Source of the DNA: Baffinella frigidus
Lineage: Eukaryota > Cryptophyceae > Cryptomonadales > Baffinellaceae
Assembly (NCBI GenBank): GCA_026770585.1
Contig: MU646892.1
Location: 45,893-84,435 of the forward strand
DNA: 38,543 bases
Direction: 5' to 3'
This document shows positions 556 through 35,325 of this stretch, in pieces. Position numbers and translations under genes: made by a program. The stretch's first letter is position 1. Each line of letters begins with the position of its first letter. The notes under the pieces are model-generated. The model was not told the DNA's origin. It saw only the letters and a program-made list of their open reading frames with translations, and searched no databases.

Positions 556-3500
556 CTTTTCCCAGGCGCGTTTCGCGAGAGGCGCGACAAGTTTGAGCTC
601 CGCCTCCTTGTCACACCCTGCTTGCGACCCTGCCACCCCGCCATCGCCATGTGTCACTTGACTTATTCATGCCAGCATGCTCGTGTACGGCGGTAGCAGC
701 TGTGGTGCGAGCTCGGGGCTCCGCCATCGTCATGTGTCACGCACCGTAACTGCTGCGACCTAGCCTTTGTGAGGGAGAAGACATGGGGGCCATGTTTGCA
801 TCAATACATGCCACACGCATTTCAGGACCCTGCAACCACGCCATCGCCTTGTGTCACTCAACTTATTCAAATACATAATTGGATGGCGCAGGTGGCGCGT
901 ATTCAAATAAAGTATCGTAAGCATGAACTCTGCGAACGAGTCGCTCAAAGCACACGTGTCAGAGTGCATGCTCACAAATGCATGCTGATATGTCAGTATG
1001 CGTATACGGAAGTAGCTAGCAGATACACGAAGGCTGACACATGAGCGTGCGTCGGCTTCGTGTCGGGGGGACGTGGGGGGGCAGACTGGCGGTGTGACCA
1101 ATAGCCTTGAAAGGGGTGCCGCGTCTCGCTTCCAAGGTCAAGTCTTTCGGGGTTGCGAACGTTCGGGGGCAGACTGCCGGTTTGACAACATCACCTCTCT
1201 GACGTCGCGCCTTTCGGGGCTGGGGTGCATGGTTTCGCTTCCATGGTGCGTGGCTACGGTTGGCATTCGCGGACCCACTGTGGTCCGGCGAGAGAGAAAG
1301 ACAGACACAGAGAGGGGGATGATGTCTTGCTAGCGCTGCCTCGCTCGGGTTAACCCACCATTCTCAAGTTGACATGGAACATTTGCGTTACACATCCGTC
1401 AACTTTGGACCGGGAAACACCGGGAAACAGCCCGGGCTCCCCAAATGGTTGAGCCCAAATAGGCTGAGCCAAAGCTAGGAGGTAGAAGCCGGGAGATACC
1501 AGCAGCACACAACCTTGCCGCGCGAGCCACATCCCCCCTCTCGCTTCCAACCCCCCCTCCTCCCCCATCCCCTCCCCCATCTCCCCAACCCTCCCCCCCT
1601 CCTCCACCAACCCCCCCACCGTTGCCGGAATGGCCTTTGAGCCATTTCTGGACGAGGCGGGAGCTGCGTTGGCGCACCTGGGGTTTGCACGCGGGTAGGT
1701 GAGGGTCTGCCTCTGCCTCACTCGGCTTCACCGACTGCTCTCAAGATGACATGCTGGTTGCAGGCATGTTTCGCGGCCGAGAGCGCTGCGTTCTTGCTCT
1801 GTCTCAGTCTTGTTCGCCTCATCGATTAGACCAATTTCACCAGTTTGGTGAGCCCGGATCCATTTTCGCTTCAAAGATGACGGATTTGTACCACACACCT
1901 AGCATGTCAACTTGATAATAAACGGTGAATGCGTGTGAGGCAGAGCTGCCCGGCATTGTGCGGTTGGCGGGCACCTTCCGGGAAGGAGATGTCCGAGAGT
2001 GTCATCAATCAATCAGTGGCGAGAGAGAGAGTGAGAGAGAGAGAGTGAGAGAGAAAGAGAGGACCCCTCCCCCCGGGGTCCGCGCTGTGGTACCTGCCTA
2101 GCCAGGCTCTCACACGCTCTCTCATCCCCACCAGCGCACCGCCCCTGCTCCACCCGACCCTTCCTGCCCCCACCCTTCCCCCCACCCCGGGCCCTGCTTG
2201 AGGGTTTCAGGTTTAGCGTTTAGGGTTTGGTGTTGAGGGTTTAGGGTGTGGGGTTGAGTGTTGAGGGTTCAGGGTTGGACGGTTAGGGTTTTTGGGTTGA
2301 GGGTTTGGGGTTTGGGGTTTGGGGTTTGGGGTTTAGGGGTTTAGGGTGTAGGGTTTAGGGTTGGGGGTTTAGAGTTTAGGGTCTAGGGTTTAGGGTTTAG
2401 GGTTTAGGGTTTAGGGTTTAGGGTTTGGAGTTTAGGGTGAGGGTTTTCAGGGTGGAGGGTTTAGGGTTTAGGGTTTGGTATTGAGGGTTTAGGGTGTGGG
2501 GTTGAGGGTTGAGGGTTGAGGGTTAGCGGTTAGGGTTTTAGGGTTCAGGGTTTGGGGTTTGGGGTTCGGGGTTTAGGGCGTGGGGTTTCAGGGTTTAGGG
2601 TTTAGGGTTTAGGGTTGATGGTTGAGGGTCTAGGATTCGAGATTAAGGGTTGAGTGTTTACATTTCAGGGTTGAGGGTTTTATGGTTTACCCCGTCCCCG
2701 CAGCTGTGCGAGCATCGGAGGGCGCGGGCCTGGTGTAGGGTTTGGGTTTGAGGGTGTAGGACGTAGGGTTTAGGGTTTAGGGTTTCGGGTGTAGGTTTTA
2801 GGTTTTAGGGTTTAGGGTTAAGACATAGGGTTCCGGGTTCCGGGTTTCGGGCTTCGGGTTCCGGGGGTAGGGGTTTGGGTTTAGGGTTTAGGGTTTAGGG
2901 TTTAGGGTTTAGGGTTTACGCCGCGGAGGCGGGGGGGGTCTTGGGCGAGAGGGAGAGGGCCGCAGACACGATCATGTCGCGCGAGGCTCTGGCTTCGCGA
3001 TTCAGCTGCGCACACGAACCGCGTTACACTGCATGTAGACACACGCGTCTGCTTCCTAGACACACTCGTATGCTTCCGCGTGGTTCGCGATTGAGCTGCG
3101 CGAGAGGCTTGGTGGCAGGCTTGGTGGCAGGCTTTCTTGGCAAGAGGCCTCGCGCGGCACCTGCATGCCTGCGTGTCATCCATTCGGATGACACCCCAGG
3201 GTATGCATGTGTCACCTCTCTGGGCTCCGAAATGCAGTGACGGTCATCGCTCGTGGGGGGGGTCATTCGCAGGAGGCTTCGCGGCATGTGTTCTGGCATG
3301 CCTGTGCGTCATGGCTTGGTGGCATTCCGTGGTGGCAAGGCTTGGTGTCCGATTCGGGTGCGGGACACGCGCCCGATGCGCACATCAGGTTTCGTGTCAT
3401 GAGGGAGAGCCTCAGCCTTCGGCCTTGGGGCTTCGGGGGAAGGGCTTGAGGTTCATGTGGCTTTGTGTCAGGACTTGGTGTCATTCGCCAGAGGCATGGT

Positions 3501-6151: not shown

Positions 6152-6189
6152 GTGGATGCGTACCTGCAGTCAAGACAGGGTCTTGCAGG

Positions 6190-6300
6190 GGTACCTGCCT
6201 CACAAGAAAGCGCAACCCCCTGTGACCCTACAGTAGGGCTATGCCTTGGTCCCTATGGTCATCCGTGGGGGGTTTATCTGTAAGACTCAGTCTCGTCTGT
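6190..6300. mobile_element. Degenerate relative of the 30146-30265 fold-back element
   Basis: The left part (GCAGGGGTACC, then CAAGAAAGCG and CCCTACAGTAGGG) matches the left half and centre of the well-preserved element at 30146-30265. The right arm is eroded, and GTCTTGCAG at the left is mirrored by CTGTAAGAC at the right. Confidence 0.45.
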
Positions 6301-9400: not shown

Positions 9401-11816
9401 ACTAGCCACACCCATTAATCCGATGGGCTACAGGGTTTTGTTTTTGTAGTCCCGCTCAGATGTTATTCCTCAATAAAGCAACTCTCTCAATTCATCTGAT
9501 GCCTTCGGTGGCACCACCGCAGGGAATCGGTCAAGCTCCAACAACTGCCACCCGCAAATTCAATCAAAAACAATATCTAGGTGTCGCTGTAGCTATAGGG
9601 TGGAGGAGAGGTTCTCACATCAAGAGCTCTCCAGTCCTGGGAATCCCACGTACTGCTCACCTGTTTGAGGCGGTTTGGTTAGAGGCAGTACTCATCACAT
9701 GTTCGAGAGTGCCCTACCGATGGGTGTCCCCGGGGCCGAGATGGTAAGGGATGCAGCCCGTAAACGGGAGGTCCCGAGTTCGAACCTCGAGGTGGGGAGA
9801 TCCGGGTGACGTTCTTTTTGGTCAAGCGTTAGCGCTCAGCGTTGGCGCATCCTTCTTTCATCCTTTCGAGTGAAGGATGGCGCAGTGCGGGGCAAGAGAG
9901 GATAGCACGTGCGGGTAGGAAATACGGGGCTGGAAAGGAGAGCACGCGCTGGAAGGAAGGAACGAGGCACCACCCAGATCTGCGCATCTCAGATCTTGCC
10001 ACGTCCCATGGGTTTCGGGTTTCGGGTTTCGGGTTTCGGGTTTCGTGTTTCTTGTTTCGTGTTTCGTGTTTCGTGTTTCGGGTTTTGGGTTTCGGGTTGA
10101 GTGTTGAGGGTGTAGGGCAACACCGAGATCTGGGCATCGGAGATTTTGCCGCTTTCCATCCCGAGAGGCTCCCCGAGCCGCGCCAGCGCTGTTGATCCTG
10201 CCATAATCACACCTTTGATTACCACGTTCCCAGACCCTGCCAGCACACCACGTTTCCACTTTGCAGCCACCAGGCGCTGCACCGGATACACTCCATTTCA
10301 TCGAATTGTACTAGAACGTTATCCATTGCCCTGGAATCTAAGCCACGTTGAATGCAAGGTGAAAAGGTCTTGGGTGGGTGCTAAGTGGTTGATGACCATT
10401 GGTCTCCCGAGGCACGCGAGCCCTGCTGTCCCAGCCAGCACCACACGACTGCTGTCCCAGCCAGCACCACACGTTGCATCATCGCATCACACACCCAACA
10501 CCGTTGTTAACTCACCGCGCTGCACTCCCTGCCAGAGTCCCACGTTGAATAACCTGATATATCACCGCGTTGATTCATCACGTGGCACGACCGCAGGGAG
10601 ACCAGAGTTACTACGCTAGACCTGAGGGGATGAAACCGCAAAAGTCAACTCACCATCACTCTCGAGTCAACTTTCGGCAGAATCCCCCCATTGGGGGGGG
10701 TTCTGCCCTTACGTCAACTTTTGATTGACCACCATCACGTCTAAAGTGGTAATGGTAATGGCACGTGCTCCCGGGGGGGGGGGCCTCGCTGATCTGCCCT
10801 GGCCAGGATCCAAGGGAACCGTGCGCGTGCGACTCAGCCTCTAGAGAGCCCCCAAACCCCAAACCCTGACCCTACACCCTAACCTCCAACCCATAAAGAG
10901 GGAGAGGTTTCTCCCCCTCGACCAAGACGCGATCTGGGCGGTCTGTGTGCCACAGCGCCTGCCGTGCTTCTCCTGAACCCTGAACCCTGAGCGAGCGCAC
11001 CTTCTCCTGAACCATTAACACTGAGCGGTCGTGCGACCGGACAATCGCGTTATCAGACAACAATCTAATTTCGGAAAAAGACATAATCTACCCCGCTATC
11101 TTAGGCTCCCCACGCGGAAGGTAGGGGTGTATATGCTAATTTGGGCATCAAATGATGCTATCTTGCGGCTTTGTATCAGGACATATTGTGGTATGTTCCG
11201 AGATAAAATGGATGAAGCGGCAAGGGCTCTGAGACCTGCGACGACGCGGCCGGGGCGACCTGTGTGCCACAGCCCCATGTTGCCTCCTGCCGTCCCACCA
11301 CCAGGGAGCGCCCTCAGTCATCAATGTGTGCCCCTTCTGTACCCCTCACTCTCTCTCGCTCGTTCTCCCGCGCGCTCTCTCTCTCCCTCCCTGTCTCTAT
11401 CTGCCTTTCTCTCTCCCCCCCTTTCTCTCTCGTTCTCTCTCTCTTCTCGAAGAACCCCCTCCCCCCCCTTTCTCACCCACAGGAGGGCGCGCCCCAGATC
11501 CTGGGAAATGCAAAGCATCCACCCTCCCGCAAGCCACATTCGGCAAGCTCTTGTTCTCTAACGAGAGGCCTGCCGCACCTTAACCCTTGACCCTACACCC
11601 TAAACCCTAAACCATAAAGCACGTAAGCCAGTCGGTCTGCTACCATCACCACCCACCTCCAAATCCGAGAAACGCACGCCGCATGCGAGAGATTGCCATG
11701 CCATGTCATGCCATGTCAGGAAGGCAATGGAATGGGAGGGGGGATTCTGCACACACCTTCGACTTCTTCCTGAAAGACGTTGAAATCTGTGAGTGCCGTG
11801 TACCACGCTGGCGACC
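6474..11816 (-). CDS. F5/8 type C (discoidin) domain protein, C-terminal eight exons
   Basis: The C-terminus is a complete F5/8 type C domain, a beta-sandwich fold that binds carbohydrate or lipid head groups. Exons: 11816-11757, 11286-11260 (27 bases), 10197-10124, 9128-9051, 8374-8309, 7676-7623, 7080-7000 and 6638-6474 (stop at 6474-6476). All junctions agree in phase, 201 codons in total. Family hallmarks appear in order: GEPLGMESGKISDAQIS and ASAQ at the domain start, NFARLNRKQG, DWVQVDLGEVCLVSGVATQ, FDQFVTAYQ, WRRQGTLLGGNTDLQTP, and RFVRIYPVAWHKHISLR near the end. The family's usual length is about 150 residues, and here it is about 146. Several splice sites are weak (ACAAG acceptors, GTTGGC and GTGCCC donors), but domain continuity supports them. 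The two most upstream exons are less certain. Ligand and cell location are not predictable. The gene continues upstream and may join the 13111-18256 exons. Confidence 0.85.
6672..6779. mobile_element. MITE-like fold-back element, family 1, copy 1
   Basis: About 108 bases with imperfect terminal inverted repeats (TTTAGCCCTCAAGTG against TTTATCCCTCACGTG) and an internal CCCTACCGTAGGG palindrome. It matches 31089-31197 along its length. It lies in the last intron of the discoidin-domain gene. Confidence 0.65.
7086..7619. repeat. 7-bp repeat array (TTTGGGG, TGTAGGG, TTTAGGG) filling a discoidin intron
   Basis: The array occupies essentially the whole intron between exons 7676-7623 and 7080-7000. 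In gene sense the donor runs straight into repeat: CAG|GTGCCCTACACCCTACA. TGTAGGG dominates near the donor, TTTGGGG near the acceptor. Confidence 0.9.
7950..8280. repeat. Short irregular repeats in a discoidin intron
   Basis: Units with GTAGGGTTCGA, GGTTCGAACATCG and GCGCAAGGGTAAGG recur two or three times. One, near 8240-8262, resembles a pol III B box (GGTTCGAA), but no full tRNA fold is present. A CCCAGGTACCCC near 8158-8171 echoes the donor region of the exon ending at 8309. Confidence 0.4.
8720..9050. other. Intron with CAC-rich and GGT-rich low-complexity DNA
   Basis: CACCACGTCAC-type units lie on the left and a GTGGGGG-rich stretch on the right. In gene sense the right part is a C-rich tract starting at the donor of exon 9128-9051. 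No exon was found. Confidence 0.45.
9129..9525. repeat. Array of acceptor-region echoes (GGTGGCACCACC units)
   Basis: At least five units combine a palindromic GGTGG..CCACC with GATGCCTT or GATGTCTT. Read on the minus strand they are GGTGGTGCCACCGAAGGCATC, the same arrangement as the acceptor of exon 9128-9051 (CCACGAACAAG|GCATC). A 42-base piece at 9190-9232 also recurs at 9386-9428. These look like repeated copies of one exon's 5' junction. Confidence 0.6.
9724..9818 (+). ncRNA. tRNA-like sequence with pol III promoter boxes (SINE-like)
   Basis: GGCCGAGATGGTAAGG resembles a pol III A box, and GAGTTCGAACCTC at about 9775-9787 a B box at normal tRNA spacing. A T5 run at 9814-9818 could terminate pol III. 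The acceptor and D stems do not pair properly, and the anticodon region folds as CCCG-TAAA-CGGG with a four-base loop, so this is not a normal tRNA. A tRNA-derived SINE head or decayed tRNA fits better. Confidence 0.4.
9977..10158. repeat. Exon 3' edge and its echo around a TTTCGGG array
   Basis: 10121-10158 is the end of the exon encoding GKISDAQIS with its GTGTTG donor. About 145 bases downstream in gene sense, 9977-10008 repeats it (an interrupted GKI.DAQI reading with a GTGGTG donor-like site). Between them lies TTTCGGG/TTTCGTG repeat. Confidence 0.7.
10009..10118. repeat. TTTCGGG / TTTCGTG 7-bp array
   Basis: About fifteen heptamers, mostly TTTCGGG with a block of TTTCGTG, on the intron side of the donor of exon 10197-10124. 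Confidence 0.9.
10198..11259. other. Intron with small repeats and hairpins
   Basis: It contains a tandem CTGTCCCAGCCAGCACCACA pair (10428-10478), a strong hairpin at 10676-10707 (GGCAGAA, C run, G run, TTCTGCC) and an echo of the 27-base exon near 10935-10965 (TGTGTGCCACAGC on the plus strand). No further exon was recognised. Confidence 0.4.
11340..11470. repeat. TC-rich microsatellite
   Basis: CTCT and TTCT units. On the minus strand this is GA-rich. Open frames here are low-complexity artefacts. Confidence 0.75.
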
Positions 11817-13110: not shown

Positions 13111-16100
13111 CTCAGCGTTGCACTCCCAGGCGCGGCGGTACTCCGGTTTCGGGCCCTGCCAACATGCAACCATTCACGTCACCACCACACACGCCAACAG
13201 TCACCGTCAACACGCGCCGATCCACGTCAGCACGGTCCTGCCAACACACACGCGTCAGCACCCCAATCGGCAACACGCGTGTAAGAGAGAGAGAGAGAGC
13301 GCGCGCGAGCGAGATAGGGAGAGAGAGAGAGAGCGCGCGAGCGAGGGATAGCGTGAGCGAGCGCGAGAGCGCGCGCGAGAGAGAGAGCGAGAGAAAGAGA
13401 GAGAGAGAGAGAGAGAGCGAAAGATAGCGAGAACGAGCGCGAGAGAGAGAGCGAAAGAGAGCGCGCACCGGCCCTACGAAGTCAATTACCTCGAGACAAG
13501 TTGACTTTTGATGAAAGGTTTGAAGTCCACCGTGTGGATGGGCAGGGTGGCGCACCGGGCCGACGAAGGAGTGCTGCATCAAGCCGACACCGGCACACCA
13601 CGCCGTGTGTCTGTGTGTGTGTGAGAGAGAGAGAGGGAGGGAGGGAGAGAGAGTGGGAAGGAGTGCGAAAGAGAGAGAGGGAGTGAGTGCGAAAAAGAGA
13701 GAGGGAGAGAGGGAGGGAGAGAGGGAGGGAGGGAGAGAGAGAGAGGGGGAGAGGGAGAGAGAGAGAGGGCGCACCGGGCCGACGAAGGAGTGGTGCATGA
13801 AGCCGACAGCGGCACACCACGCGGTGTGGTAGTGGGTGAAGAACGTGTGGTGCGACCGCGTCAACCTGCCACGGTGTGAAACCTCTAATTCAGCAGAGAC
13901 GTCAAGCACTGACAAAGATGGACGCCGCTGCAGTGCGCGTGCGAGCGCGTCAACCTGCCACGTGCCCATCCCGTTACAGACCCCCAGGTGCGGACCTTTC
14001 TGAATCACCACGGCTCAGAGCAACGGCGCTCAACACTCACCATTTGGCACTCAGCACTCAGCACTCAACCACCGTTCCTCACTCCAAAGTCACCGATCCA
14101 GCATCATGCCTTCTCAGGTCCGGGATCATGCCTTTTGACTTGCCGATCCGGCATCGTGCCTTCTCACATCACTGCTAGCCAAGATGTTTTGTCATTTGGC
14201 TGATCCTCGGCAGTAATTTGCCAGGGAGGGTGCTCCCAGAGCACCCACTTGACTTCAGGCTCTGGCTCTGAGGGTCAGTTGGCTTCATTGAAATGTTCTG
14301 GTTGGAAGTGCATTTAACATTTGCCGGCTGTCAGATGGCATGCCAACTGAGTACGCAGGTGTCACTTGCTTTACACTTGCACTTACATAAACCCTGCACC
14401 CTGAACCCTGAACCCTGAACCCTGAACCCTGAACCCTGAACCCCAAATAAACCACACACACGGAACCCTGACCCCCAAACGCAGAAGATACCGGCCGGAG
14501 CAATCAGGGTCGCAATTCAGCAGGCATCCCTTTACCAGTAGGCGCAGACTCCCTACCGTAGGGCCCTAGGACCTGCCTAGGATCTCTTGGGGATCAATTT
14601 TGCCCCCCTCGCCACTGAACGTATAACCTCCCGCGGAACACGCACACGTCAGCCATTTGTTTAACCACTTGGGTTTGTACTAGTACCGCTATCGAGCGAA
14701 CTCGTCACATATAAGACAGCCATGTCCAGAATCTGGACATGGCTTCCAGGTAACAGGACTTTCAACGATGAAAGGTGTTGCATGTTCGCTCGGCAGCGGA
14801 TCCTTGAGGTGGACGCCTGACAGAATATAATCTAGTGTGGTCCGGGACTGGACCGGGCAGTGCAATGAGCGATCGAGGAGGTACGCTCTTCCGCGGAGCA
14901 CGCAGGCATGGCTTTGAACGCTGCGTAGTTAGTGGGTTGATCACTTCCCACTAGGATGCGGACACTGCAGAAAAGAAAAGAAAAAGAAGAAGGAGAAGAA
15001 GAAGACGAAGAAGGAGAAGGAAAAGAAGAGAAAAGAAGAAGAAGAAGAAGAAGAAGAAGAAGAAGANNNNNNNNNNNNNNNNNNNNNNNNNNNNNNNNNN
15101 NNNNNNNNNNNNNNNNNNNNNNNNNNNNNNNNNNNNNNNNNNNNNNNNNNNNNNNNNNNNNNNNNNNNNNNNNNNNNNNNNNNNNNNNNNNNNNNNNNNN
15201 NNNNNNNNNNNNNNNNNNNNNNNNNNNNNNNNNNNNNNNNNNNNNNNNNNNNNNNNNNNNNNNNNNNNNNNNNNNNNNNNNNNNNNNNNNNNNNNNNNNN
15301 NNNACCGGTGAGAGTGGGATCGAGGGGGTGGCGGAGTAGGTAGGTGCGATCGAGAAGGTACGCTCTTCCTTGGAGGACGCTACGGATAATCATGCCAGGC
15401 TGGGGTCCAGGGAACGGATCACGGCACGTACGATCATGGTGCGTAGTTGGAAGGTCACTTTCTACTATGCTGCGGGTTCTGAAGAAAAGAGAAGAAGGAC
15501 GGACCGGCCAGTGAGATTGGGATCGAGAGGGTGGCGGAGGAGGTAGGCGCGATCAAAAAGGTACGCTCTTCCGCGGAGCACGCATTTTACAGTGACTTCA
15601 CTCAAGATGTACGGTCGGTCGAGTCCGACCGTACATCTTGAGTGACTCAAGATGTACAGCCCCTGGGGGACGGACCGGCCGGTGAGATTGGGATCGAGAG
15701 GGTGGCGGAAGAGGTAGACGATCGAGGAGGTACGCTCTCTCGCGGAACACGTCGTCTTGCGTCGCGTGACAGGCCGGGGTCTAGGGAACGGATCAATTTC
15801 ACAATTGGCAAATGTCGACGGTTCTGGTACGAAAGTATCAACTTTTACCATTGTTGCATTATTTGATTTTTCTACGAGCACGGACCGGCCGGTGAGAATG
15901 GAGTCGTTGGGGTGTCGGCAGAGGCTGGCGCGATCGAGGAGGTAGGCTCTTCCGCGGAGCACGCACACGTCGTCTTGCGTCGCCCCTAGGATCACCAGGC
16001 AGTCCACAAACTCCCCCACCACCTAGTTGAGGGATTTGTAGTTTAGGGTTTGGGGTTTAGGGTTTGGGATGTGTGGTTTATGTCGGGGTGAACGCCGAGG

Positions 16101-22984: not shown

Positions 22985-24023
22985 AACACGACCCTCCTTG
23001 AGGTCGCCACCTGCACCCAGCCAGGTCGCCGTATTCACATTCCTAAACCCCAACCCCTAAAACCTAAACCATAAACCATAAACCATAAACCCTAAACCAT
23101 AAACCCTGAACCATGAACCCCGAAAGTTGGCACCTTGAGGGTAGAGCAGCCCTTGGTGGCATACTCCTTCTTGAAGATCGCGGCGATGGTGCGCCACCGA
23201 GAAGAGGCCTTCTTCTGCACGTTGCCTGTCGACCGCAGACACACCCCCGCCTGCCATCCACCAGCCACCCCAACTCTATCACATCGGGATCTGTCACCTG
23301 TTGCCAACTTCACCAGGGCTGAAGGCTGAGCCGTTGGTCCTGGGGGGGGGGATGAGTAGTTAGTAGTTTGATCACTTGTCAGAACGGCTTCACACGCTCG
23401 ACGTGTGTTATGAAGAACAGTTCACAGGACTGAATACAGAGGTTGACAACGAACAAACCGACCCCGCATGCCATCCCCCCATCCTTCGCGCGTCAGGGCC
23501 TACGTAAGTTGAGTCGTTGGGCTGTTGAAACTGCTCAGTCCGTGGGCTATCAAAACTTTGCGACGAAGGGATTTCGGAAGAAACTTTGTCTTTTGGGAGG
23601 GAGTGGTAGGGACCAGGAGGAAGATAGCGTCGCCGCCGTGGCGGTCGGATTTCGGGAGGGCTTCTCTGTGCTGGCAAGGATTTCTGGAGGGGTTCTCTCT
23701 CTTGAGGACGGTTGCAGGAGGGTTTGTCTGACCAGGAGAAACATGGCGTCGCCGGCGTGGCGATCGAACGGCCCGTGGAATTGAGATGTGCCGGGGGTCT
23801 TGGACCGGACCATGGTCTTGAACCCCCGGCACATGAACTGCACCGCTTTGTCCGCCTGCTCGTGGGAGGGAAGCGAGCTTGAATAAATCGTCAAACGCCA
23901 CCGCTGTACGCTAGGTGGAGAGGTGAGACGAGACGTGAGGGTTCGTGCGTCGTCCTTCCTATCAGACTTGGTCTTGCTAGCATGCTCGAGCATCGCCCGT
24001 CCCCTCAGATCGCCACTCGCCAT
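19661..24023 (-). CDS. Unrecognised multi-exon charged protein, eight phase-matched exons
   Basis: No family recognised. Exons: 24023-23733 (MASGDLRGRAMLEHASK to DRHAGDAMFLL), 23214-23134 (RWRTIAAIFKKEYATKG), 22857-22768 (REDPQLYEGKSLQLAEGLLS), 22500-22318 (an acidic DDSDDKDDWESALRFLVEC segment), 21670-21549 (YTQIKSILEADDAVSSKAV), 20554-20500, 19880-19800 (HLKEDWKRIMELMSWCSHL, strong GTGAGT donor) and 19725-19661 (GTVAAITVLQHCGLPPNF, strong GTAAGT donor). Each junction agrees in phase, 322 codons plus two bases. Exon 20554-20500 has two readable frames and the chain uses the one giving TTTTGFRGSKKSSKK, so that part is less sure. The ATG at 24023 follows a CAG acceptor; an upstream exon may exist (24990-25433). 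The strong last donor shows that the gene continues downstream, probably into 18256-13111. Confidence 0.6.
19879..20045. mobile_element. Fold-back element next to an exon acceptor
   Basis: Left arm GCTTGCGAAACCACCAGCCA.. with GTTTACCAGATCGGG; right arm carries the inverse (CCCGATCTGGTAAAC, GTGGCTGGTGG, GCGAGCC). An inner ACTAAAG / CTTTAGT palindrome lies at the centre. The left arm reaches the acceptor of exon 19880-19800. Confidence 0.6.
20088..20160. mobile_element. MITE-like element, family 2, diverged copy
   Basis: AACCAAATTTACTACA on the left and TGTGTAGTAAATTTCGTTG on the right, the same ends as 20376-20458. The interior is about 35 bases and AT-rich. Confidence 0.6.
20376..20458. mobile_element. 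MITE-like element, family 2
   Basis: Nearly perfect terminal inverted repeats: GGGTAACGAAATTTACTACA at the left, and the reverse complement with one difference at the right. About 83 bases in all. Intronic relative to the minus-strand gene. Confidence 0.7.
20725..20867. repeat. GTATATG 7-bp array
   Basis: About twenty heptamers, GTATATG then GTACATG variants. It gives long Tyr/Met/Val-rich open frames on both strands that are artefacts. Confidence 0.9.
20983..21130. repeat. CT, TATC and CCCT microsatellites
   Basis: CTCT, then TCTATCTATC, then (CCCT)n near 21040-21075. Confidence 0.85.
21421..21838. repeat. Large inverted repeat enclosing one exon
   Basis: Outer arms GTGGGCTACGAGGGTTTCGT at 21424 and its inverse ending at about 21837; inner arms GTTGACTTTGGATGAAAGGT at 21491 and its near-inverse near 21722-21743. 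Exon 21670-21549 sits in the middle. A related GTTGACTTTTGATGAAAGG occurs at 13500. Confidence 0.75.
22013..22219. mobile_element. Fold-back element (candidate MITE)
   Basis: TTGTACCCCACGCCAGGTCG and GGGAATTTCAGA on the left are mirrored by TCTGAAATTTCC and GACCTGGCGTGGACTACAA on the right. Interior about 120 bases, no coding sequence. Intronic. Confidence 0.65.
22508..22596. repeat. CCCCATT 7-bp array
   Basis: Twelve nearly perfect heptamers. In gene sense (GGGGAAT) the array ends about 8 bases before the TTTGGCAG acceptor of exon 22500-22318. Confidence 0.95.
22632..22676. promoter_or_regulatory. Perfect 19-bp-stem palindrome with CACGTG motifs
   Basis: GTTGGTCACGTGTCGACCA, loop TTGAACG, TGGTCGACACGTGACCAAC. 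Each arm has a CACGTG (G-box type) and a GTCGAC site. It lies in an intron; a regulatory role is only a possibility. Confidence 0.5.
22885..22982. repeat. CT then CA dinucleotide repeat
   Basis: CTCT/GCTC followed by (CA)n, in the intron between exons 23214-23134 and 22857-22768. Confidence 0.9.
23043..23122. repeat. AAACCAT / AAACCCT 7-bp array
   Basis: About ten heptamers beginning a few bases beyond the donor of exon 23214-23134 in gene sense. Confidence 0.85.
23606..23642 (-). repeat. 3'-edge echo of exon 24023-23733
   Basis: Reads RHGGDAIFLL followed by a GTCCC donor-like site, against RHAGDAMFLL and GTCAG at the true exon end (23733). About 30 of 33 bases match. Confidence 0.75.
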
Positions 24024-24056: not shown

Positions 24057-24186
24057 GCTAACAACACAACGCCCGTCCCCTCAGACCTCTGCCCTGCATC
24101 TGAGAACAAAGTGGTAGAACCGAAGCAGGCTCGTTCAACACCCTCCCCCCTCAGACCGCCACGCGCCATCCGCTATCAAAGTGGTG
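24057..24186 (-). repeat. Two 5'-edge echoes of exon 24023-23733
   Basis: 24062-24116 keeps a TTCTCAG acceptor, an ATG and GGTCTGAGGGGACGGGCG; 24143-24186 is more decayed. Both lie upstream of the real exon in gene sense. Confidence 0.75.
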
Positions 24187-25760: not shown

Positions 25761-28700
25761 ATGAGCAGGAAATCAGGGGGCAAGTCCCGCGAGTCGGCCG
25801 AAAGCAAGGCGGAGCGGCTGGAGGGAGTGGTTCGCCAGCAGCATCTTCTCATCCAAGAACAGACGAGGTGAATGGCCCCTAGAGCGGGCGGGGTGGGTCC
25901 TGCGCAACAAGATGTGTGGGACGCGGCGCGGCGCCGGCGTGCCCAGTGCCGCCCTGATGCGCCAGCGTGTGCGAGAGGATGGGCCCTAGAAGGGGGGGCA
26001 CTAGGGGATATGGGGGGGTGGGTGGTTTTCCGGTTTGGTGGTGGGGGGGTNNNNNNNNNNNNNNNNNNNNNNNNNNNNNNNNNNNNNNNNNNNNNNNNNN
26101 NNNNNNNNNNNNNNNNNNNNNNNNNNNNNNNNNNNNNNNNNNNNNNNNNNNNNNNNNNNNNNNNNNNNNNNNNNNNNNNNNNNNNNNNNNNNNNNNNNNN
26201 NNNNNNNNNNNNNNNNNNNNNNNNNNNNNNNNNNNAGGGTCTAGGGGGTTGGGTTCAGGGGTTAGGGGTTATGGCGTGGCGTGCGCGTGTCCATGGGGGG
26301 AGAGGGAGTCGGCGTGCAGCACGCCGTAAACCCTCAACCCTAACCTCTGAACGCTAACCCCCAAACCCCACACCCTAAACCCTAAATCCCAAATCCTAAA
26401 CCTCGAACTCAAACTCGAACCCTGAACCAGAGGTCTGCGTGGTGGTAGAGGGGGTAGAGGAAAGGGTGGGGCCAAGGACCCACCCTAAACTCTCAAAACT
26501 ATACCCTACACCCCAAACCCTAACCCCTGGCCAAGGAGTAGAGGAAGGGGCAGGACCACTGATGCGTGAGGAACAAAGTGGCGTGCACAAACCTTACACC
26601 CTGGACCTCGAACCCCGAAACAGGGCAATCTGAGGCTTGATGGCACACGTCGGAAGCCTGCAGGAGGACATCCACCCTTCTCGGGGGTCACTGACAATCC
26701 CGAACACCTTGCGGTTCACGGTGGGTCACTGACAATCCCCCAACCCCTGACTCTGACCCTGTGGTTTTCAGGTCGATCGAAAGCTTGATGGCACACGTCG
26801 GCAGCTTGCAGGAAGACATTGCTGCCCAGGACCGCCAGATTGACGGCTTTCGCTCACAGGTCTGTCTATCTGCCATGTGATCTGTCTTTCTGCCGTTTGA
26901 TCTGTCTTTCTGCCCTTTGAGCCTGGATGAGGACATCGCGGCGCAGTACTGCCAGATTCACGGCTTCCGTTGACAGGTCCGTTTTTCTCTCCTTGAAAAC
27001 ACAAACAAGTGGCCGTGCAACCCACAAACAGGTTGCTGCGCACCTTTCAACAATCTTTCCATGCGGAAAGGCACCTGTGCGGCGTCGGTGCCGCCCTGGA
27101 GGGAACTCTGAAGCAGCTTGGACCTTTGCGTGGGCAGATTTTCAAGGGGATGTACTGGAATCGGACCTTTTCGATTCCAGCACATCCCCTTGAAAATTTG
27201 GTTGAGAGTTCCCTCCAGGGTGGCGTGCTTTTGGCGCACGGTCGCATCGCCTCCCTGGACACAAACCCTACAAGTGGCAAATTGCCTTGGGCCTTCCCAC
27301 TAGCCCTTGGAAGTGGCTCAAATAGTGGTCTGAAGCATTTTTGATTGACCTTGACAGACCCCCCGATCTGGGGGGTCTGCGATAACAGTTGACGAATTGT
27401 CGGTACAAAACTTTTGAAAAATAGTGCAGAGCACAATTTGAGGCATCATCTCCCAGGGTTAGTGGTCTGCGAGATGCCTGCAACCAGTCCCACGCTCCGC
27501 AGTGGCAAACCCCCCCCGGCACCGCAATCGCCTCTCGACGCTGCGCCGGACCCTCTCAGCCCTCCTCCTGGCACTCTCATCCGTACACATGCACCTCTTA
27601 GACGTACTCCTGATACCGCAGCGCTGTGGAACACGATGCTCTCAGCCATCAACCCTCAACCCCTCAACCCTAAACCCTAAACCCTAAACCCTAAACCCTA
27701 AACCCTAAACCCTAAACCCTAAACCCTAAACCCTAAACCCTAAACCCTAAACCCTAAACCCCGAACCCTAAACCCTAAACCCTAAACCCCGGGATGTTGC
27801 AGGTGGAAAGGCATCGGGAACGCGCAGAGGAAGAGGCGCGGCATCGACAGGTTATCTTTGAGCCTCCCCCACCTCAGGCGATTCGTTGCAGGGTTCCGAG
27901 TGTCGGGTGCAGGGTGTAGGGTGTAGGGTGTAGGGTGTAGGGTGTAGGTGTAGGGTGTAGGGTGTAGGGTGGGAGGCATCGCGAACGCGCGGAGGAAGAG
28001 GCAAGGCATGGACAGGTTATTCTTGAGCCACTCCCAACCCAAAACCCGAAACCTGAAACCCGAAACCCGAAACCCGAAACCCGAAACCAGAATCCTGAAA
28101 TCCTAACACGGCATTTTTCTGAACCTCTTTTACTCGCAGTATCCAACCCCCCACCTTTTTTTAAACGGAGTAACCACTCTGCAACGTATCCCGAACAAAA
28201 ACAGTGGACTGCTCAAGACAGTCAATGGATTCCTTCCAATCCCATCATGCATTGATGCGAGCGCAAGCAGGATTGGAGTTTTCAGTATCTCGTACACCCA
28301 CAGCATTGCATTACCGTACGATGCTACAACCTTACAGGCAACTGAGCCCGCACAGAATGCAACACTCCATCTCGTGATGTCAGCGCAAGTAAGGAGAAGT
28401 GGCACCAGGGAAGTACAAATGTGAGGCACGGCGTGGTACCGGGCCTTTCAAGGCGACTTTTCACAAAAACGAATTCCGCGGGGGCGTCTAACGCCTTCGG
28501 TGGAAGCAGGACTCGGAGATCCCATCATTTATTGATGTCACCGCACGCATCACCCTGAACCCTAAACCCTAAACCCTGAACCCGTGTTTTCCCCCAGGAT
28601 TGGGAGCGGCGGCACCAGGACGTATCAGAGCAGCTAGGCACAGCCGTGCGGGAGAGGGAGCGCGAGCGCGGGGGGTGGGGGAATGGGGGTGCGTCCCTCA

Positions 28701-31065
28701 ACACGAAACACTACTCCCTAATCCCGAAACACGAAACACGAAAAACGAAAAACGAAACCCTAAACCCTAAACCCACAACCACAAACCACAAACCACAAAC
28801 CACAAACCACAAACCACAAACCACAAACCACAAACCACAAACCACAAACCACAAACCACAAACCACAAACCACAAGCCCCAAACCAAACCCCAAACCGCA
28901 AACCGCAAAGCAGGCGCGTCCCTCGACTCGAGTGCAGACAACAGCCCGTCGAAATTCCTGAGCACGTCGTTGCTCAAGAGCGCGGCCAAGAGCGCGAGGG
29001 CCGCAAGTCCTGCCAGGTGCCCCCCCGCGCCCTGACACCCGGGTTCTCGATTCTTGATTTATGTAGAGAGGGATTCATCCGCCTGATTTTGCATTGAATT
29101 CCTTAGGAATTGATGCGCCGTATTTTGGCACAAATATGGAGTCGGCAATCCCCCGTGCGGAGCAGGCAGGGGAACGCTTGCGGCGGGGGTGGAGCCTGCT
29201 AGCCAGGGGTAGCAGACAGGCCTGTCTGGCGGTGCGGTGTCCCAGGGCGAACGAGGCTGGCCAGCGCTGTCAGTTCTTCTCTCGCTCCAGCTATTGCTGG
29301 CACGGCGCGGAGAGAGCGCGGGCCGTGCGCCTCAGCAGTGCCGCGGCCTCGGAACAGACACGCCCGCCTTGGGATGGATAGGCCCGCCTCGGGATGGATA
29401 GGCCCGCCTCGGGATGGATAGGCCCGCCTCAGGATAGAGGCGAGTGGGGGCAGCTGACGTGACGCTCCTGGGTTAGTTGGCTGAGGTGGGACGTGATGTC
29501 AGCTGCAACCAGGAGCCCAGCTGAGCGGCTGGTTGCAGCTGACGTCACGTCCCTCGGTTGGTTGAGAGCATGTCTTCAGGTGTGGCGGTTGACTGTGCGC
29601 GAGGGCGGTGGGTGGCATATGGCCTGTAAAGTGACTGAAGGGTGGTTGGTTCTGGTGGCAGTTCTGGTGGCAGTTGTGGTGATACGCGACTGACGGGTGG
29701 GTGCTTGTGGTTGGCTGAGGAGCTCCTCGGCTGGGGGATGCGGGCGGTGAGTGGCAGGTGGCCTGTTGGATGCGGGTGTTGGTGACTGACGGCTGATTGT
29801 TTGCGGTGGCAGTTCACTGTACGCGAGCGGGTGGCGCGCCCAGGACGAACAGATGAGCAAGGTCCTCCCTCCTCCCTCCTTCCTCCTCCCTCCGTTTGCG
29901 TCAGCCCTGGTCGACTTGGCCTGAACTAAATTTAGAAGAACTCAGTGTATTTGGGCTCACCACTCTGGTGAGCCCGGGCTCTTTTCCGCTCCAAACGTGC
30001 CTTACCTCAAAGCCAGCGTGCCGACTTGAGAAAAGTCGGTCAAGTGTGAGGCAGAGCTAGGACTTGCGGCGGAAAGCCGCCTCACAGAAGTTGCAGCGAA
30101 AAGCGGTCCGAGAGACGTTGCGGCAATGAGTAGTCTAAGAGGCGTTACAGGGGTACCTCGCTCATAAGAAACCGCCACCCCCTTAGGATCACCACAGGGC
30201 CCTAGGCATGGCCTACTGTAGGGTCCTAGGGGGGGGCGGTTTCTGATGAGCGAGGTACCCCTGTAGAGGCGTGCCAGGAGGTGCAACAGCGAGAGGCTTG
30301 ACATGTGTCTGGGGATACAGTCCCGTGTGGTAAAGTCACTCCGGTCATCCTACACGGAACTGTATCCTCCGACTTCTCTGCAGAAGGAGTTGCTCGCAGT
30401 GGCAAGGCGGGGGGAGGGACGTGGAGTGAGAGGAGATAGGGGGGGTGGCACTCAACCCTAAACCTAGACCCTACACCCTACACCCTACACCCTACACCCC
30501 ACACCCTACACCCTACACCTACACCCTACACCCTACACTCTACACCCTACACCCTACACCCGACACCGTAAACCCTCAACACTAAACACTAAACAGGTTT
30601 CGTAAACCTAACCCCCACGCCCTAAAACCTCCACCAGGTGCGGGACAACCAGAGATAGTCATCGAAACGCTCTGCACGCACACACCCTCCAACGCAGCCA
30701 GTTTTCGTGAACCGTACTGGCTCATGCGGAGGGTGGGTCCCGGCACTCACGGCGGTACTCAGCTATTGATCCTTTAGATCCTTTAGGTTCTTCGAGCTCC
30801 CAACATAGGCGGGCACCGGAACTTGTTCTGTAGAAAGGCCATGCTTCCTTTCGGATCACATCAAGCACCCCTGTACAGATATGTGCGCCCGTGATAACCC
30901 AACCCCTCAACCCCAAAGCAGGTGCGGGACAACCTGCTAGAAGCAGAGCTGGTGATAGAGAAGCTGTGCGCACAAGCCTCGCGCGGAACCATCCCACGCG
31001 GGGAACTCCGACAACAACGTACCCCGCACAAACCGGACCCGGCCACTATCCTCCCCGTGCCCTGA
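25761..31065 (+). CDS. Coiled-coil protein, multi-exon
   Basis: Exons on the plus strand: 25761-25867 (MSRKSGGKSRESAESK to LLIQEQTR), 26772-26859 (SLMAHVGSLQEDIAAQDRQ), 27803-27850 (VERHRERAEEEARHRQ), its duplicate 27968-28015, 28598 to about 28694 (DWERRHQDVSEQLGTAVRER) and 28914-29016 (NSPSKFLSTSLLKSAAKSAR). These join in phase. A likely last exon is 30922-31065 (DNLLEAELVIEKLCAQASRG, stop at 31063). It does not fit the phase of 29016, so at least one exon is missing; 30380-30430 (KELLAVARR after a good CTCTGCAG acceptor) is a candidate. The product is dominated by Glu, Arg and Gln helices typical of coiled coils, with a Ser/Ala/Lys-rich part near the middle. This suggests a structural or scaffolding role, but no family is recognised. 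ATG 25761 was chosen as the first Met after which coil character is continuous; longer open sequence exists upstream. Confidence 0.6.
26051..26235. other. Assembly gap (185 N)
   Basis: In the first intron of the coiled-coil gene, between G-rich and TTAGGGG-like sequence, so the missing part is probably 7-bp repeat. Confidence 1.
26236..26625. repeat. CCCTAAA-type repeats and a duplicated segment in intron 1
   Basis: Degenerate heptamers at 26236-26275, 26325-26425 and 26483-26530. A segment GTAGAGGAA.GGG.. GG.CCA occurs at about 26452-26475 and again at 26537-26565. Confidence 0.65.
26628..26976 (+). repeat. 5' and 3' echoes flanking exon 26772-26859
   Basis: 26636-26672 repeats the first part of the exon upstream of it (SLMAHVGSLQEDI). 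26926-26976 repeats the last part downstream with an in-frame TGA, a CAG and a GTCCG donor-like site (DEDIAAQYCQIHGF). Only the adjacent half is repeated on each side. Confidence 0.85.
27092..27220. mobile_element. Fold-back element with long inverted arms
   Basis: Inner arms 27138-27163 and 27172-27197 pair over 26 bp with one or two mismatches (ATTTTCAAGGGGATGT..). Outer arms (CCTGGAGGGAACTCT at about 27094 and its inverse near 27219) pair too, with extra unpaired bases on the left. Confidence 0.7.
27355..27379. other. Hairpin CAGACCCCCC / GGGGGGTCTG
   Basis: Perfect 10-bp stem around GATCT. Similar C-run/G-run hairpins occur at 10676-10707 and in the arms near 21800, each close to GTTGAC or GTCAAC, so they may be one family. 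Confidence 0.6.
27655..27789. repeat. Pure CCCTAAA telomere-type array
   Basis: About 17 nearly perfect copies, the cleanest canonical plant-type telomere repeat in the window, ending 13 bases before the GCAG acceptor of exon 27803-27850. Interstitial. Confidence 0.95.
27803..28015 (+). repeat. Tandem duplicated 48-base exon around TGTAGGG repeats
   Basis: 27803-27850 and 27968-28015 both encode 16 residues (VERHRERAEEEARHRQ and GGRHRERAEEEARHGQ), both in phase 0, both followed by GTTAT donors. The acceptor of the second copy is the TAG of the last TGTAGGG unit. Confidence 0.8.
28024..28110. repeat. CCCGAAA 7-bp array
   Basis: About nine heptamers immediately after the donor of the duplicated exon. 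Confidence 0.9.
28755..28905. repeat. AAACCAC 7-bp array
   Basis: About sixteen nearly pure heptamers in the intron before exon 28914-29016. The flanking exon ends share GCGTCCCTC (28691-28699 and 28916-28924), a direct repeat bounding the intron. Confidence 0.95.
29362..29439. repeat. 20-bp minisatellite, four copies
   Basis: Unit GCCCGCCTCGGGATGGATAG, nearly identical copies. Confidence 0.9.
29488..29553. other. 25-bp-stem palindrome
   Basis: Arms 29488-29512 and 29529-29553 pair with a single mismatch (GGGACGTGATGTCAGCTGCA.. against its inverse). One arm contains TGACGTCA. A partial third copy (CAGCTGACGTGACG) lies at about 29452-29465. Confidence 0.75.
29955..30056. repeat. Dispersed repeat, copy 2
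   Basis: Matches 1837-1950 from TGGTGAGCCCGG to GTGTGAGGCAGAGCT. Confidence 0.6.
30146..30265. mobile_element. Well-preserved MITE, hAT-like
   Basis: About 43-bp terminal inverted repeats starting TACAGGGGTACCTCGCTCAT with very few mismatches. The element is flanked by direct GAGGCGT (30139-30145 and 30266-30272), 8 bp if the preceding A is counted. A CAGGG-type end with an 8-bp duplication is typical of hAT elements, so hAT mobilisation is an inference. Confidence 0.8.
30305..30368. other. Inverted repeat GGATACAGTCCCGTGT
   Basis: GGATACAGTCCCGTGTGGTA is mirrored by TACACGGAACTGTATCC. Related motifs occur at 31193-31215 and 36565-36650, indicating a dispersed fold-back family. Confidence 0.55.
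30454..30618. repeat. CCCTACA 7-bp array
   Basis: About fifteen CCCTACA units then degenerate heptamers, ending near the echo of the last exon. Confidence 0.9.
30631..30690 (+). repeat. 5'-edge echo of the last coiled-coil exon
   Basis: CACCAG|GTGCGGGACAACC repeats the acceptor and start of exon 30922-31065 (GCAG|GTGCGGGACAACC), then continues with gapped similarity to CTCTGCACGCACA. Confidence 0.75.
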
Positions 31066-31088: not shown

Positions 31089-31197
31089 TATCCCTCCAGT
31101 GCCCGGTAGGCTCGTACGCCCTACCGTAGGGCCCTAGCTAGGACCTGCCTAGGGCTTCCGCAGGCGATTATTCGCCCGTTGGGTCACTTGGAGGATA
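31089..31197. mobile_element. MITE-like fold-back element, family 1, copy 2
   Basis: Ends TATCCCTCCAGTGCCC and (inverted) TATCCTCCAAGTGACCC. The interior has the CCCTACCGTAGGG palindrome and CAGGCGATTATTCGCCCG hairpin. Matches 6672-6779. Confidence 0.7.
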
Positions 31198-31795: not shown

Positions 31796-31852
31796 TGCCT
31801 GCCTGCCTGCCTGCAAGCAGCCTGCCTGCCTGCCTGCCTGCCTGCTAGCGAC
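31796..31852. repeat. CCTG tetranucleotide repeat
   Basis: Two blocks of (CCTG)n with a short interruption. Confidence 0.9.
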
Positions 31853-32031
31853 ACTTCCTACCCACACGTGCGTCGTCTTGCTGGTCAGAGGTGGGCATGT
31901 CTGAAACGGGCATGTCTGAAACATGCACCACGTACAGATATCTGCCACGGACACACCACTCACCACACATCCTGTCCAGACAAGGCCCTCTGTATCCCGC
32001 AAGTTTTAATAATTACCTCTACTTCTAGTCC

Positions 32032-32036
32032 TTACA
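32032..32036 (-). terminator. Possible polyadenylation signal TGTAA
   Basis: On the minus strand TGTAA lies about 20 bases after the cyclin stop codon. TGTAA is the usual signal in several green algae; here it is only suggestive, since a 5-base match is easily found by chance. Confidence 0.3.
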
Positions 32037-32054
32037 ATCTCGGGCCCCCAGCGT

Positions 32055-32879: not shown

Positions 32880-32967
<88 letters not shown>

Positions 32968-34801: not shown

Positions 34802-35325
34802 CTGGAGGGCAAGGCCTACTTCTCCTGCCACACACGAGCCCTCGCTGGACTGCAGCACCCCCCCTCCCCTCCCGATTGCTGTCGTCCTAGACTGCATCAC
34901 CCCCCCTCCCCTCCCGATTGCTGTTCTTGTATGTTGATGTTCTTTGAGCCCAGAATTCTGACGTGTACCTCGCTGACCTTTTGAAACCTGCAATTACCGG
35001 GTTTCTGAATGTCCACCCCCTTTGACCTTTGCAACCCGCACAACTTTACAACCACGCTGTATGTGTCGTTTTTGAGTTTTGTTTGCAAAATAAATAAATG
35101 GATTGACTTTATTGTGAATTGTACGCTCACCTGAGCCGGCGGCTCCGTGAACTTACTCAAACAACTTTTGGCCTTTGGAACCCGCACAACTCCACAACCA
35201 CACTGCATGTATTGCTTTGGTTGGCAAATAAATGAACTCAATGACACTATTTGTGAATTGTACGCCGCTCACCTGAACCGGCGGCTCCGTGCTTTTACTC
35301 AAAACACCATTTGGGGGTCCGCAGG
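34802..35325 (-). CDS. Partial minus-strand gene, two exons
   Basis: Not recognised. One exon ends at 35273 with GTTCAG|GTGAGCG and reads PPNGVLSKSTEPPVQ; its start is unclear (about 35325). The next is 34849-34802 (SSEGSCVAGEVGLALQ between GCTGCAG and GTCATG). Both are phase 0, so they join. A 3'-edge echo of the first (FTEPPAQ and a GTGAGCG donor) lies at 35131-35155, and a 5'-edge echo of the second (GATGCAG|TCTAGGACG) at about 34884. Further exons must exist on both sides. Confidence 0.4.
34849..34924. repeat. Tandem duplication of an acceptor tract
   Basis: GACTGCAGCACCCCCCCTCC and following bases to TTGCTGT occur twice, 41 bases apart. Confidence 0.8.
35022..35310. repeat. Tandem duplication of about 145 bases
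   Basis: Units 35022-35155 and 35166-35300 align along their length (ACCCGCACAACT, GCAAATAAAT, GTGAATTGTACGC, CACCTGA.CCGGCGGCTCCG). Each includes an exon 3' edge plus donor in minus sense. Confidence 0.8.

Follow-up and report, generated by a model that had tools for sequence, protein, structure and literature searches.

The window, by which we mean the whole stretch analyzed (38,543 nucleotides of the Baffinella frigidus genome; contig MU646892.1, positions 45,893 to 84,435), carries exons of different genes on both strands, and in the introns beside many of these exons lie partial, decayed copies of the exon edges, here called echoes. Used as a query, the window sequence matched one genomic place. 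Exons are those called in a first-pass annotation, with splicing inferred from conservation and GT/AG signals. That annotation had claimed that the 5' part of an exon is repeated upstream and the 3' part downstream. Using each of ten exons that it listed as a bare query, at thresholds of E<=0.05 and E<=1e-3, we found echoes at seven (26772-26859, 24023-23733, 16022-15886, 17319-17220, 13865-13775, 10197-10124, and the exon ending near 35273), the same seven at both thresholds. The direct echoes numbered 19 at the first threshold and 17 at the second. All 19 obeyed the polar rule, upstream echoes matching the 5' part and downstream echoes the 3' part, and inverted echoes numbered 0. The exons and their echoes are as follows.

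26772..26859, forward strand: called exon with a coiled-coil-like frame, intact between two echoes; AG/GT flanks read by eye
26628..26671, forward strand: upstream echo of the 5' part and acceptor of the 26772 exon (86% over 44 bp, E 6e-10), read as a copy of a target duplication
26672..26768, forward strand: insert separating this echo from the exon; one weak relative was seen, in locus L060 (71% over 65 bp, E 5e-4)
26920..26976, forward strand: downstream echo of the 3' part and donor of the 26772 exon (77% over 57 bp, E 2e-9)
23733..24023, reverse strand: called exon
23614..23647, reverse strand: downstream echo of its 3' part (85%, E 2e-6)
24124..24169, reverse strand: upstream echo of its 5' part (78%, E 2e-6)
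24067..24085, reverse strand: second, shorter upstream echo (95% over 19 bp, E 0.002)
15886..16022, reverse strand: called exon with multiple echoes on both sides
16095..16132, reverse strand: upstream echo of the 16022 exon (E 4e-9)
16223-16264, reverse strand: upstream echo of the 16022 exon (E 9e-5)
16365-16429, reverse strand: upstream echo of the 16022 exon (E 3e-11)
16519-16550, reverse strand: upstream echo of the 16022 exon (E 9e-5)
15676..15765, reverse strand: downstream echo of the 16022 exon (E 1e-17)
15505-15584, reverse strand: downstream echo of the 16022 exon (E 8e-17)
15305-15380, reverse strand: downstream echo of the 16022 exon (E 3e-14)
14869-14904, reverse strand: additional downstream piece of the 16022 exon, from a separate repeat search of the window
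17220..17319, reverse strand: called exon
17069-17124, reverse strand: downstream echo of the 17319 exon (E 1e-5)
16941-16983, reverse strand: downstream echo of the 17319 exon (E 9e-5)
16704..16747, reverse strand: downstream echo of the 17319 exon (E 3e-8)
13775..13865, reverse strand: called exon
13556..13619, reverse strand: downstream echo of the 13865 exon (E 8e-17)
10124..10197, reverse strand: called exon
9976..10009, reverse strand: downstream echo of the 10197 exon (79%, E 9e-5)
35112..35161, reverse strand: downstream echo of the exon ending near 35273 (87%, E 4e-12), within the repeat pair 35021-35171/35167-35314
30614..30700, forward strand: upstream, acceptor-side echo of the 30922-31065 exon (65% over 97 bp, E 4e-6), found with flank in the query
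809..869, reverse strand: upstream echo of the 629-556 exon edge, mostly its intron side (flank query, 79%, E 3e-11; pair 626-669/826-869, 88.6%)
706-740, reverse strand: second upstream copy of the 629-556 exon edge (flank query, E 2e-4)

The last three lines come from a second query of the three missed exons with 40 nt of flank on each side, the flank having been added after the misses were known. The echo of the 30922-31065 exon contains a 16-base exact match spanning the acceptor, at 30635 and 30919, and the 629-556 exon showed one weak inverted match besides its two upstream copies (E 0.03). The third exon, 9128-9051, for which five or more 5' echoes had been claimed, showed none at threshold even with flanks; its lone match is inverted and downstream (E 6e-4). 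Echoes are thus real at nine of the ten listed exons, seven by the exon alone and two more with flank. Both echoes described for the 26772 exon were found, as were those on either side of the 24023 exon, all three downstream of the 17319 exon and the one downstream of the 10197 exon. The four upstream echoes described for the 16022 exon were recovered in full; downstream, where four had likewise been described, the exon query returned three, the piece at 14869-14904 being additional. At the 13865 exon the downstream echo held up, separated from the exon by a GA-rich simple-repeat stretch, and the proposed 5' echo (13939-13954, E=0.03) was no better than chance. The downstream echo expected for the 35273 exon was also present, its side being weakly informative with the exon ends set in our follow-up at 35310-35245.

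The polar rule was then assessed at exon cores elsewhere in the B. frigidus genome, defined by conservation and so independent of the exon calls in the window. We examined 79 exon cores conserved in kinases and chaperonins; 26 had local same-strand copies, 52 in all, of which 50 obeyed the rule and 0 were inverted. In the first set, 42 kinase exon cores, 22 exons had 44 direct echoes (upstream/5'-half, 20; upstream/3'-half, 0; downstream/3'-half, 22; downstream/5'-half, 2) and 0 inverted ones. The second set of 37 cores, most of them long matches whose ends may fall short of the exon edge, contributed four exons with eight echoes, 8/8 on the rule and 0 inverted. Local repeats as such are common, since random segments of the window gave a direct echo in 15/92 cases and an inverted one in 8/92 (E<=1e-3); thus, the polarity is the unusual part. 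Random non-core segments, some of them possibly uncalled exons, had a local direct repeat in 94 of 300 cases.

The echoes decay as noncoding sequence would. Across 30 non-redundant exon edges, differences fell on the three codon positions as 18, 27, and 55; the third-position share exceeds 1/3 (p = 7e-6), and its excess over 1/2, the value predicted if one copy is coding and the other neutral, is not significant (p = 0.18). The same echoes contain three stop codons, and frame changes occur as well. This pattern fits a coding exon paired with a decaying echo. Constraint on the echoes, suggested by a count that included repeated echoes, was not borne out by the non-redundant count. Exon edges pasted locally into introns, or alternative exons in tandem retained for splicing, would be in keeping with the splice-site letters kept in the echoes and with the 22 of 42 first-set exons that have them; the near-empty off-rule classes among the 44 echoes, the stops and frame changes, and a codon pattern that fits one neutral copy all speak against this explanation, which we regard as highly doubtful. 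Beyond the splice boundary, pairs exceeded the null 95th percentile at 2/19 upstream and 5/21 downstream edges. The duplication looked strikingly pinned to the splice site at first sight, but any such extra effect was nonsignificant given length and detectable overlap (Fisher p = 0.25) in a test that used 19 of 25 edges, the other six being excluded because automatic placement of the splice site gave an exon part that was too short or an intron part below zero.

What lies between the copies bears directly on their origin. Among 189 repeat pairs, the gap separating the copies peaks at about 80 to 160 bp. At exon edges (n=25), the duplicated stretch, T, has a mean length of 59 bp; the median insert is 103 bp, and 16/25 inserts measure 60 to 200 bp. 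The first-pass annotation had suggested simple tandem duplication across exon-intron borders, which predicts the same polarity, and adjacent pairs do exist: 11/189 overlap or sit within 20 bp, with array members counted more than once, and several plain tandem repeats with 20- to 100-bp units are likewise present in the window. Copies that are 94 to 100% identical are, however, mostly separated by 53 to 285 bp of other sequence, and a tandem unit would have repeated that spacer too. Because the spacers are other sequence, we reject tandem duplication as the main route and regard it as highly improbable. Re-insertion of whole exons, raised by 5' and 3' echoes that abut one another at 26772 and at position 3735 of L061, was also rejected, as other exons show gaps or larger overlaps.

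The inserts are of many kinds. Compared with the rest of the sampled sequence, 73 of 109 spacers had some match (59 when simple repeats were excluded), 48 matched another locus, and 31 did so over at least 50 bp at E<=1e-8; the remaining 36 had no match within the sampled genome sequence. A 601-bp query containing the insert at 26672..26768 returned its self-match only. Inserts at kinase exon edges include a truncated family F repeat and a family A fragment, both in L061, and a minisatellite-like stretch in L060. End-to-end inverted-repeat scores averaged 4.87 in 127 inserts versus 5.00 in controls, with scores of at least 8 in 7.9% versus 4.8%. Inverted-repeat transposons were accordingly rejected as a general cause, insert scores being close to those of controls and the elements E and B lacking long T. 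We likewise rejected the L061 insert as an intact element with ends at the echo boundaries; it is a left-truncated fragment of an inverted-repeat element of about 152 bp (length by eye). Family F, present in L061, had at least 43 listed matches, with 40 scored out of 1092 first-look candidates. By the same criterion as applied to family D below, T adjoined the element in 2/20 copies, both left-truncated; five more (L082, L083, L092, L098, and L101) had a direct repeat farther out.

The same copy-insert-copy anatomy surrounds family D, a 92-bp dispersed element, of which we sampled the best 20 matches to a query that included the right end. Direct repeats of 15 to 77 bp flank 13 of 20 copies as called by program, or 14 with L076 added by eye, among them repeats identical over 77/77, 45/45, 61/61, and 42/42 bases. 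All 13 called copies also satisfy the criterion used for controls, which was satisfied at 25/1000 random anchors, 0/33 rows of the inverted-repeat element E, and 2/14 rows of element B, both being one copy. No long direct repeat was found at 6/20 copies, and one of these, L072, has inverted flanks. The length of T averages 44 bp (SD 16; 16 copies, two lengths set by eye). Since this anatomy also occurs away from called exons, both here and in the random non-core segments, the earlier idea of a process specific to exon edges is unsupported.

In 11/13 called copies, T2 begins 2 to 6 nt beyond ..CTGTT, right-end completeness being partly selected for by the query; in L066 and L067, the offset is 12 and 15 nt, respectively. 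Two departures from this end were noted: L055, found independently, has T and stops early at ..CCGGCG, and L061 reads CTGTTTCC. The left end is variable, with 2 to 41 extra bases partly common to several copies; other sequence has been added at the 5' ends, which are not truncated within the element. Shared extensions (13 bp in L066/L072, 9 bp in L068/L079) indicate that the extension travels with family D. About 60 bp left of the element are also common to L069 and L071, continuing into the T of L069, and are uninformative on extension mobility. The predicted fold is stable (z -3.15), no tail was seen, and an Rfam search with 12 of the 20 copies gave nothing above the gathering score.

One explanation for these features is a dedicated mobile element, a retroposon like family D or a one-ended DNA element, in which one end is fixed, the other varies, and the cuts lie about 45 bp from each other, other inserts being captured by the same machine. 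The right end near T2, the variable left ends, the T lengths, and the stable fold argue for it, and the pattern resembles target-primed reverse transcription. We nevertheless consider it rather unlikely: the same anatomy accompanies many kinds of insert, simple repeats and truncated fragments included; no common end motif was seen outside family D, nor by eye any target motif; and the reverse-transcriptase matches listed in the genome, at least 20, carry no class assignment. A second explanation is patch-filling repair of breaks, in which nicks on opposite strands, fill-in, and end joining would trap whatever DNA is at hand, such as repeat fragments and telomere-like or minisatellite DNA, with family D as a frequent passenger. 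It would fit the heterogeneous, often truncated inserts and the family D sites at which no target motif was seen by eye. It resembles the repair proposed for Daphnia introns (PMC4202315) and that also proposed for tandem duplications arising where opposite strands are nicked close together (PMC8355091). The near-constant right end of family D would be unexpected under random capture, however, and an insert is present in most pairs, with few plain T-T cases; we put this explanation at even chances.

We propose that the echoes are long target-site duplications left by the insertion of DNA, a reading to which we assign a probability of roughly 0.74. In this scenario, a site would be opened by two cuts on opposite strands, about 15 to 90 bp apart, and would receive a piece, often of about 60 to 200 bp, that may be a dispersed-repeat fragment, a minisatellite or telomere-like stretch, or family D. 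Fill-in of the staggered ends would then duplicate the stretch between the cuts, converting T to T-insert-T. Where T overlaps an exon border, one copy would rebuild the complete exon and its splice site and the other would stay on the intron side, so that the exon's 5' part would be left upstream only and its 3' part downstream only. Insertions that break the exon would presumably be lost through selection on splicing. The leftover copy would decay as intron sequence, and repeated events would extend the intron from the exon ends. Insertion with target duplication, combined with the need for a whole exon, would thus yield the polarity without any exon-specific process. More tentatively, there may be a genome-wide insertion system in which cuts about 45 bp apart are the rule, exon edges are self-healing, and introns grow from the exon borders; insertions at exon edges would then be tolerated, since the closest splice site often lies within one duplication length. 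We consider this broader reading less likely than not.

The cause of intron growth is a long-standing question, and harm is the expected outcome of an insertion at an exon edge. The Baffinella genome measures 534.5 Mb versus 87.2 Mb in its relative Guillardia theta, about sixfold more, and strain CCMP2045 is reported to be conspecific (PMC9756366). In so large a genome, the rate, target choice, and splicing consequences of insertion would become measurable. The length of the duplication would turn a hit on an exon into a harmless intron extension, and each event would leave, next to a reference copy under constraint, a trace that can be dated. If the genome-wide system exists, introns would have a new way to lengthen, and coding genes would preserve past insertions as a legible fossil record.

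A rice study reportedly described patch-mediated tandem duplications at nearby opposite nicks, mainly adjacent and without a 100-bp insert, and a 2009 paper in Science, which PMC3443670 cites, reportedly described staggered double-strand-break insertions in newly gained Daphnia introns. The literature that we searched contained no account of duplications this long at exon edges. Patch-mediated duplications are alike in their opposite-strand nicks, fill-in, and duplication of the stretch in between (PMC8355091). Introners are also short dispersed elements that enter genes with target duplications and use target splice sites, but the earlier characterized families have 3- to 9-bp duplications and the element becomes the intron, whereas in Baffinella the duplications greatly exceed that length, the echoes lie beside exon edges already in place, and the insert extends an existing intron (PMC9860276); words beginning with Baffinella or crypto- are absent from that paper's main text. 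Family D may resemble SINEs and LINEs in having a near-fixed end, a variable one, and direct repeats on its flanks, although the near-fixed end, seen in 11/13 called copies, was part of the query that selected them; LINE duplications are typically at most 20 bp, versus a mean of 44 bp in family D, for which no tail or target motif was seen (PMC13295347). Terminal inverted repeats with a short fixed duplication, as in miniature transposons, are not what we found. Duplications of 111 and 250 bp have been published for a human endogenous retrovirus, with pseudo-duplication by recombination discussed as an alternative; there they mark exceptional sites of one LTR family, whereas in Baffinella long duplications are usual for family D and many unlike inserts (PMC5488345). 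Within the literature searched, a cut spacing of about 45 bp would be well beyond usual published values, this retrovirus providing the rare longer cases. New introns of Daphnia are likewise inserts flanked by direct repeats from the filling of staggered breaks, and lengthening of young introns was proposed there, but the exon-end repeats measure 4 to 12 bp versus about 15 to 90 bp in Baffinella, and the new introns arise within exons, whereas the Baffinella insertions lie mostly at existing exon edges with the exon restored (PMC4202315).

Local copies of exon edges in the neighboring introns (echoes) were present at 7 of the 10 exons that the first-pass annotation had called from sequence alone, with the exon by itself as query (19 echoes at E ≤ 0.05, 17 at E ≤ 1e-3). 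The polarity claimed there was borne out: all 19 echoes lay on the expected side, and no inverted copy was seen. When the three missed exons were searched again with 40 nt of flank added, upstream echoes were recovered at exons 30922 and 629, and two inverted hits appeared. The five or more 5' echoes claimed at 9051-9128 (minus strand) were found neither with the exon alone at E ≤ 0.05 nor with 40 nt of flank, which instead gave an inverted downstream match at 8723-8763 (E 6e-4). Random window segments, as a control, had a direct local repeat in 15/92 cases and an inverted one in 8/92. Repeats of this local kind are frequent in the window, and it is the polarity that needs testing; moreover, these exons may owe their calling to the echo pattern, a risk of circularity.

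We avoided this circularity by choosing exons defined by conservation, searching the 382-Mb assembly that contains the window at G000:C578:45893-84435. From 108 kinase matches (PF00069), we took neighboring exons of one gene, a selection biased toward short-exon genes, giving 42 exon cores in 20 regions; 22 of the 42 had a direct echo at most 700 bp away. The 44 echoes comprised 20 of the 5' half upstream, 22 of the 3' half downstream, and 2 of the 5' half downstream; among them, no 3'-half upstream and no inverted echo was found. Both off-rule echoes lie at one locus (L058), where one match seemingly extends beyond the donor site, as judged by eye. Among 300 random segments outside the cores, 94 had direct copies and 28 had inverted ones. 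For further exons we turned to the 40 loci of the best chaperonin and kinase matches, dropping L002, whose flank was short, as well as L029 and L039, which had been covered before; these loci provided 37 cores, mostly long and possibly stopping short of the exon edge, of which 4 had echoes; all 8 echoes obeyed the rule. Pooled, 50/52 echoes from the two sets are on rule.

The anatomy is that of copy, insert, copy. At a kinase exon elsewhere in the genome (L061:3735-3848), an 84-bp copy (94%) of the acceptor side and first part lies 67 bp upstream, and a 91% copy of the last part, including the donor, lies downstream. Across 25 exon edges, the copied stretch averaged 59 bp and the insert had a median of 103 bp. 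Plain tandem duplication across exon-intron borders, one explanation offered in the first-pass annotation, is disfavored because the spacer itself is not repeated in high-identity pairs and because only 11 of 189 local repeat pairs (members of arrays being counted several times) overlap or lie ≤20 bp apart, the gaps peaking at 80 to 160 bp; plain tandem units of 20 to 100 bp nonetheless exist in the window. At the L061 exon and at 26772-26859, the 5' and 3' echoes of the same exon overlap by a few bases (5 to 8, by eye), as if an older copy had been split by one break; elsewhere this is not the rule. At L044:4114-5120, the downstream echoes of one exon have intron sequence past the donor in common, starting after about 6 differing bases beside the GT (by eye).

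A 92-bp dispersed element, family D, found through an L061 spacer outside the kinase exons, provided the decisive control, away from called exons. At least 44 matches were listed, and 40 of 905 first-look candidates were scored; we examined the 20 copies that came next, taking about 200 bp of flanking sequence along with each. Direct repeats of 15 to 77 bp flanked 13 of the 20 by program, plus L076 by eye, and several were perfect (77/77, 45/45, 61/61, and 42/42). Such long flanks were not found in 6/20; in one of these, L072, the flanks are inverted (GCCACACAGCGGGCTACG / CGTAGCCCGCTGTGTGGC). The duplicated stretch, T, had a mean length of 44 bp (SD, 16) in 16 copies including L061 and L055, with the lengths in L066 and L076 fixed by eye. 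The same direct-repeat criterion was passed by 25/1000 random anchors, by 0/33 rows of inverted-repeat element E, and by 2/14 rows of inverted-repeat element B (one and the same copy), palindromic elements possibly appearing once per strand in these counts.

Inverted-repeat elements used as controls
30146-30265 and 6186-6273, also in L051 and L013: element E, ~122 bp, terminal inverted repeats TACAGGGGTACCTCGCTCATAAG, without long flanking repeat
6674-6777, 14535-14581, and 31089-31197, also L013:2976-3087: element B, ~105-bp inverted-repeat element, TATCCCTTAAGTGACCA...

The right-hand T began 2 to 6 nt beyond ..CTGTT in 11 of 13 program-called copies (12 nt in L066 and 15 nt in L067), right-end completeness being partly selected for by a ranking query that included this end. 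The left end carries 2 to 41 additional bases, some of which recur in other copies (L066 and L072 share 13 bp, L068 and L079 share 9 bp). This extension thus appears to travel with the element, which would make family D the newcomer. The L055 copy has T but a shortened right end; in L076, the duplication covers an acceptor and so is itself an exon-edge case, as judged by eye. Three family D copies stand in tandem at L075 (G000:C196:523743-524032), with ~21-bp spacers.

The end of family D speaks for a mobile element making the insertions, a tentative and rather doubtful reading. The inserts are of mixed kinds, which favors the capture of DNA at staggered breaks, to which we assign a probability of about one-half. 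Those at kinase exons include a left-truncated family F repeat, a family A fragment, and a minisatellite-like stretch, and among 20 further family F copies, T adjoined the element in 2 (both left-truncated) and a direct repeat lay farther out in 5. Of 109 spacers compared with the rest of the fetched sequence, 73 matched something, 59 without simple repeats, and 31 matched strongly in another locus. A reverse transcriptase search listed at least 20 matches.

Insertion with duplication of the target probably accounts for the polarity. Where T lies across an acceptor, the arrangement T-insert-T would keep the exon complete to the right of the insert, with an extra copy of the exon's 5' part to the left; a donor would give the mirror image, and the remaining insertion outcomes would disrupt the exon. 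Keeping the exon complete in this way would yield the polarity, the same-strand orientation, and the decay. Across 30 non-redundant exon edges, differences at codon positions 1, 2, and 3 numbered 18, 27, and 55, the pattern of one coding plus one neutral copy: the third-position share was above one-third (P = 7e-6) and not significantly above the one-half that such a pair should give (P = 0.18). An impression of constraint on the echoes was gone in the non-redundant count, and an apparent pinning of echoes to the splice site was not significant once length and detection were accounted for.

The published Baffinella frigidus assembly is described as 534.5 Mb with 41% repeats (PMC9756366). In the window, degenerate 7-bp telomere-type arrays (TTTAGGG and variants) occupy 2201-2918, 7091-7619, 18752-19250, and 36652-37936, the longest 1.3 kb, besides many shorter ones; some such stretches are inserts between duplicated stretches. 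Two N assembly gaps and one 100-base poly-G/C run lie at 15067-15303, 26051-26235, and 32880-32979. An intron of ~98 bp near 33407-33310 (by eye), without obvious echo, belongs to the following gene.

33650-33042, minus strand: cyclin gene (PF08613, 2.3e-25)

Among known systems, staggered breaks leave exon-end repeats of 4 to 12 bp at new Daphnia introns (PMC4202315), duplications at previously characterized introners are given as 3 to 9 bp (PMC9860276), and direct repeats at intron borders are reported to average 11.4 bp, within a span of 4 to 30 bp (PMC11782384). LINE duplications are described as typically ≤20 bp (PMC13295347), and for one human endogenous retrovirus, duplications as long as 111 and 250 bp have been reported as rare cases (PMC5488345). 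The Baffinella pattern works in the same way as the break-insertion cases, but its duplications are larger as a rule and lie at the edges of exons, not within them.
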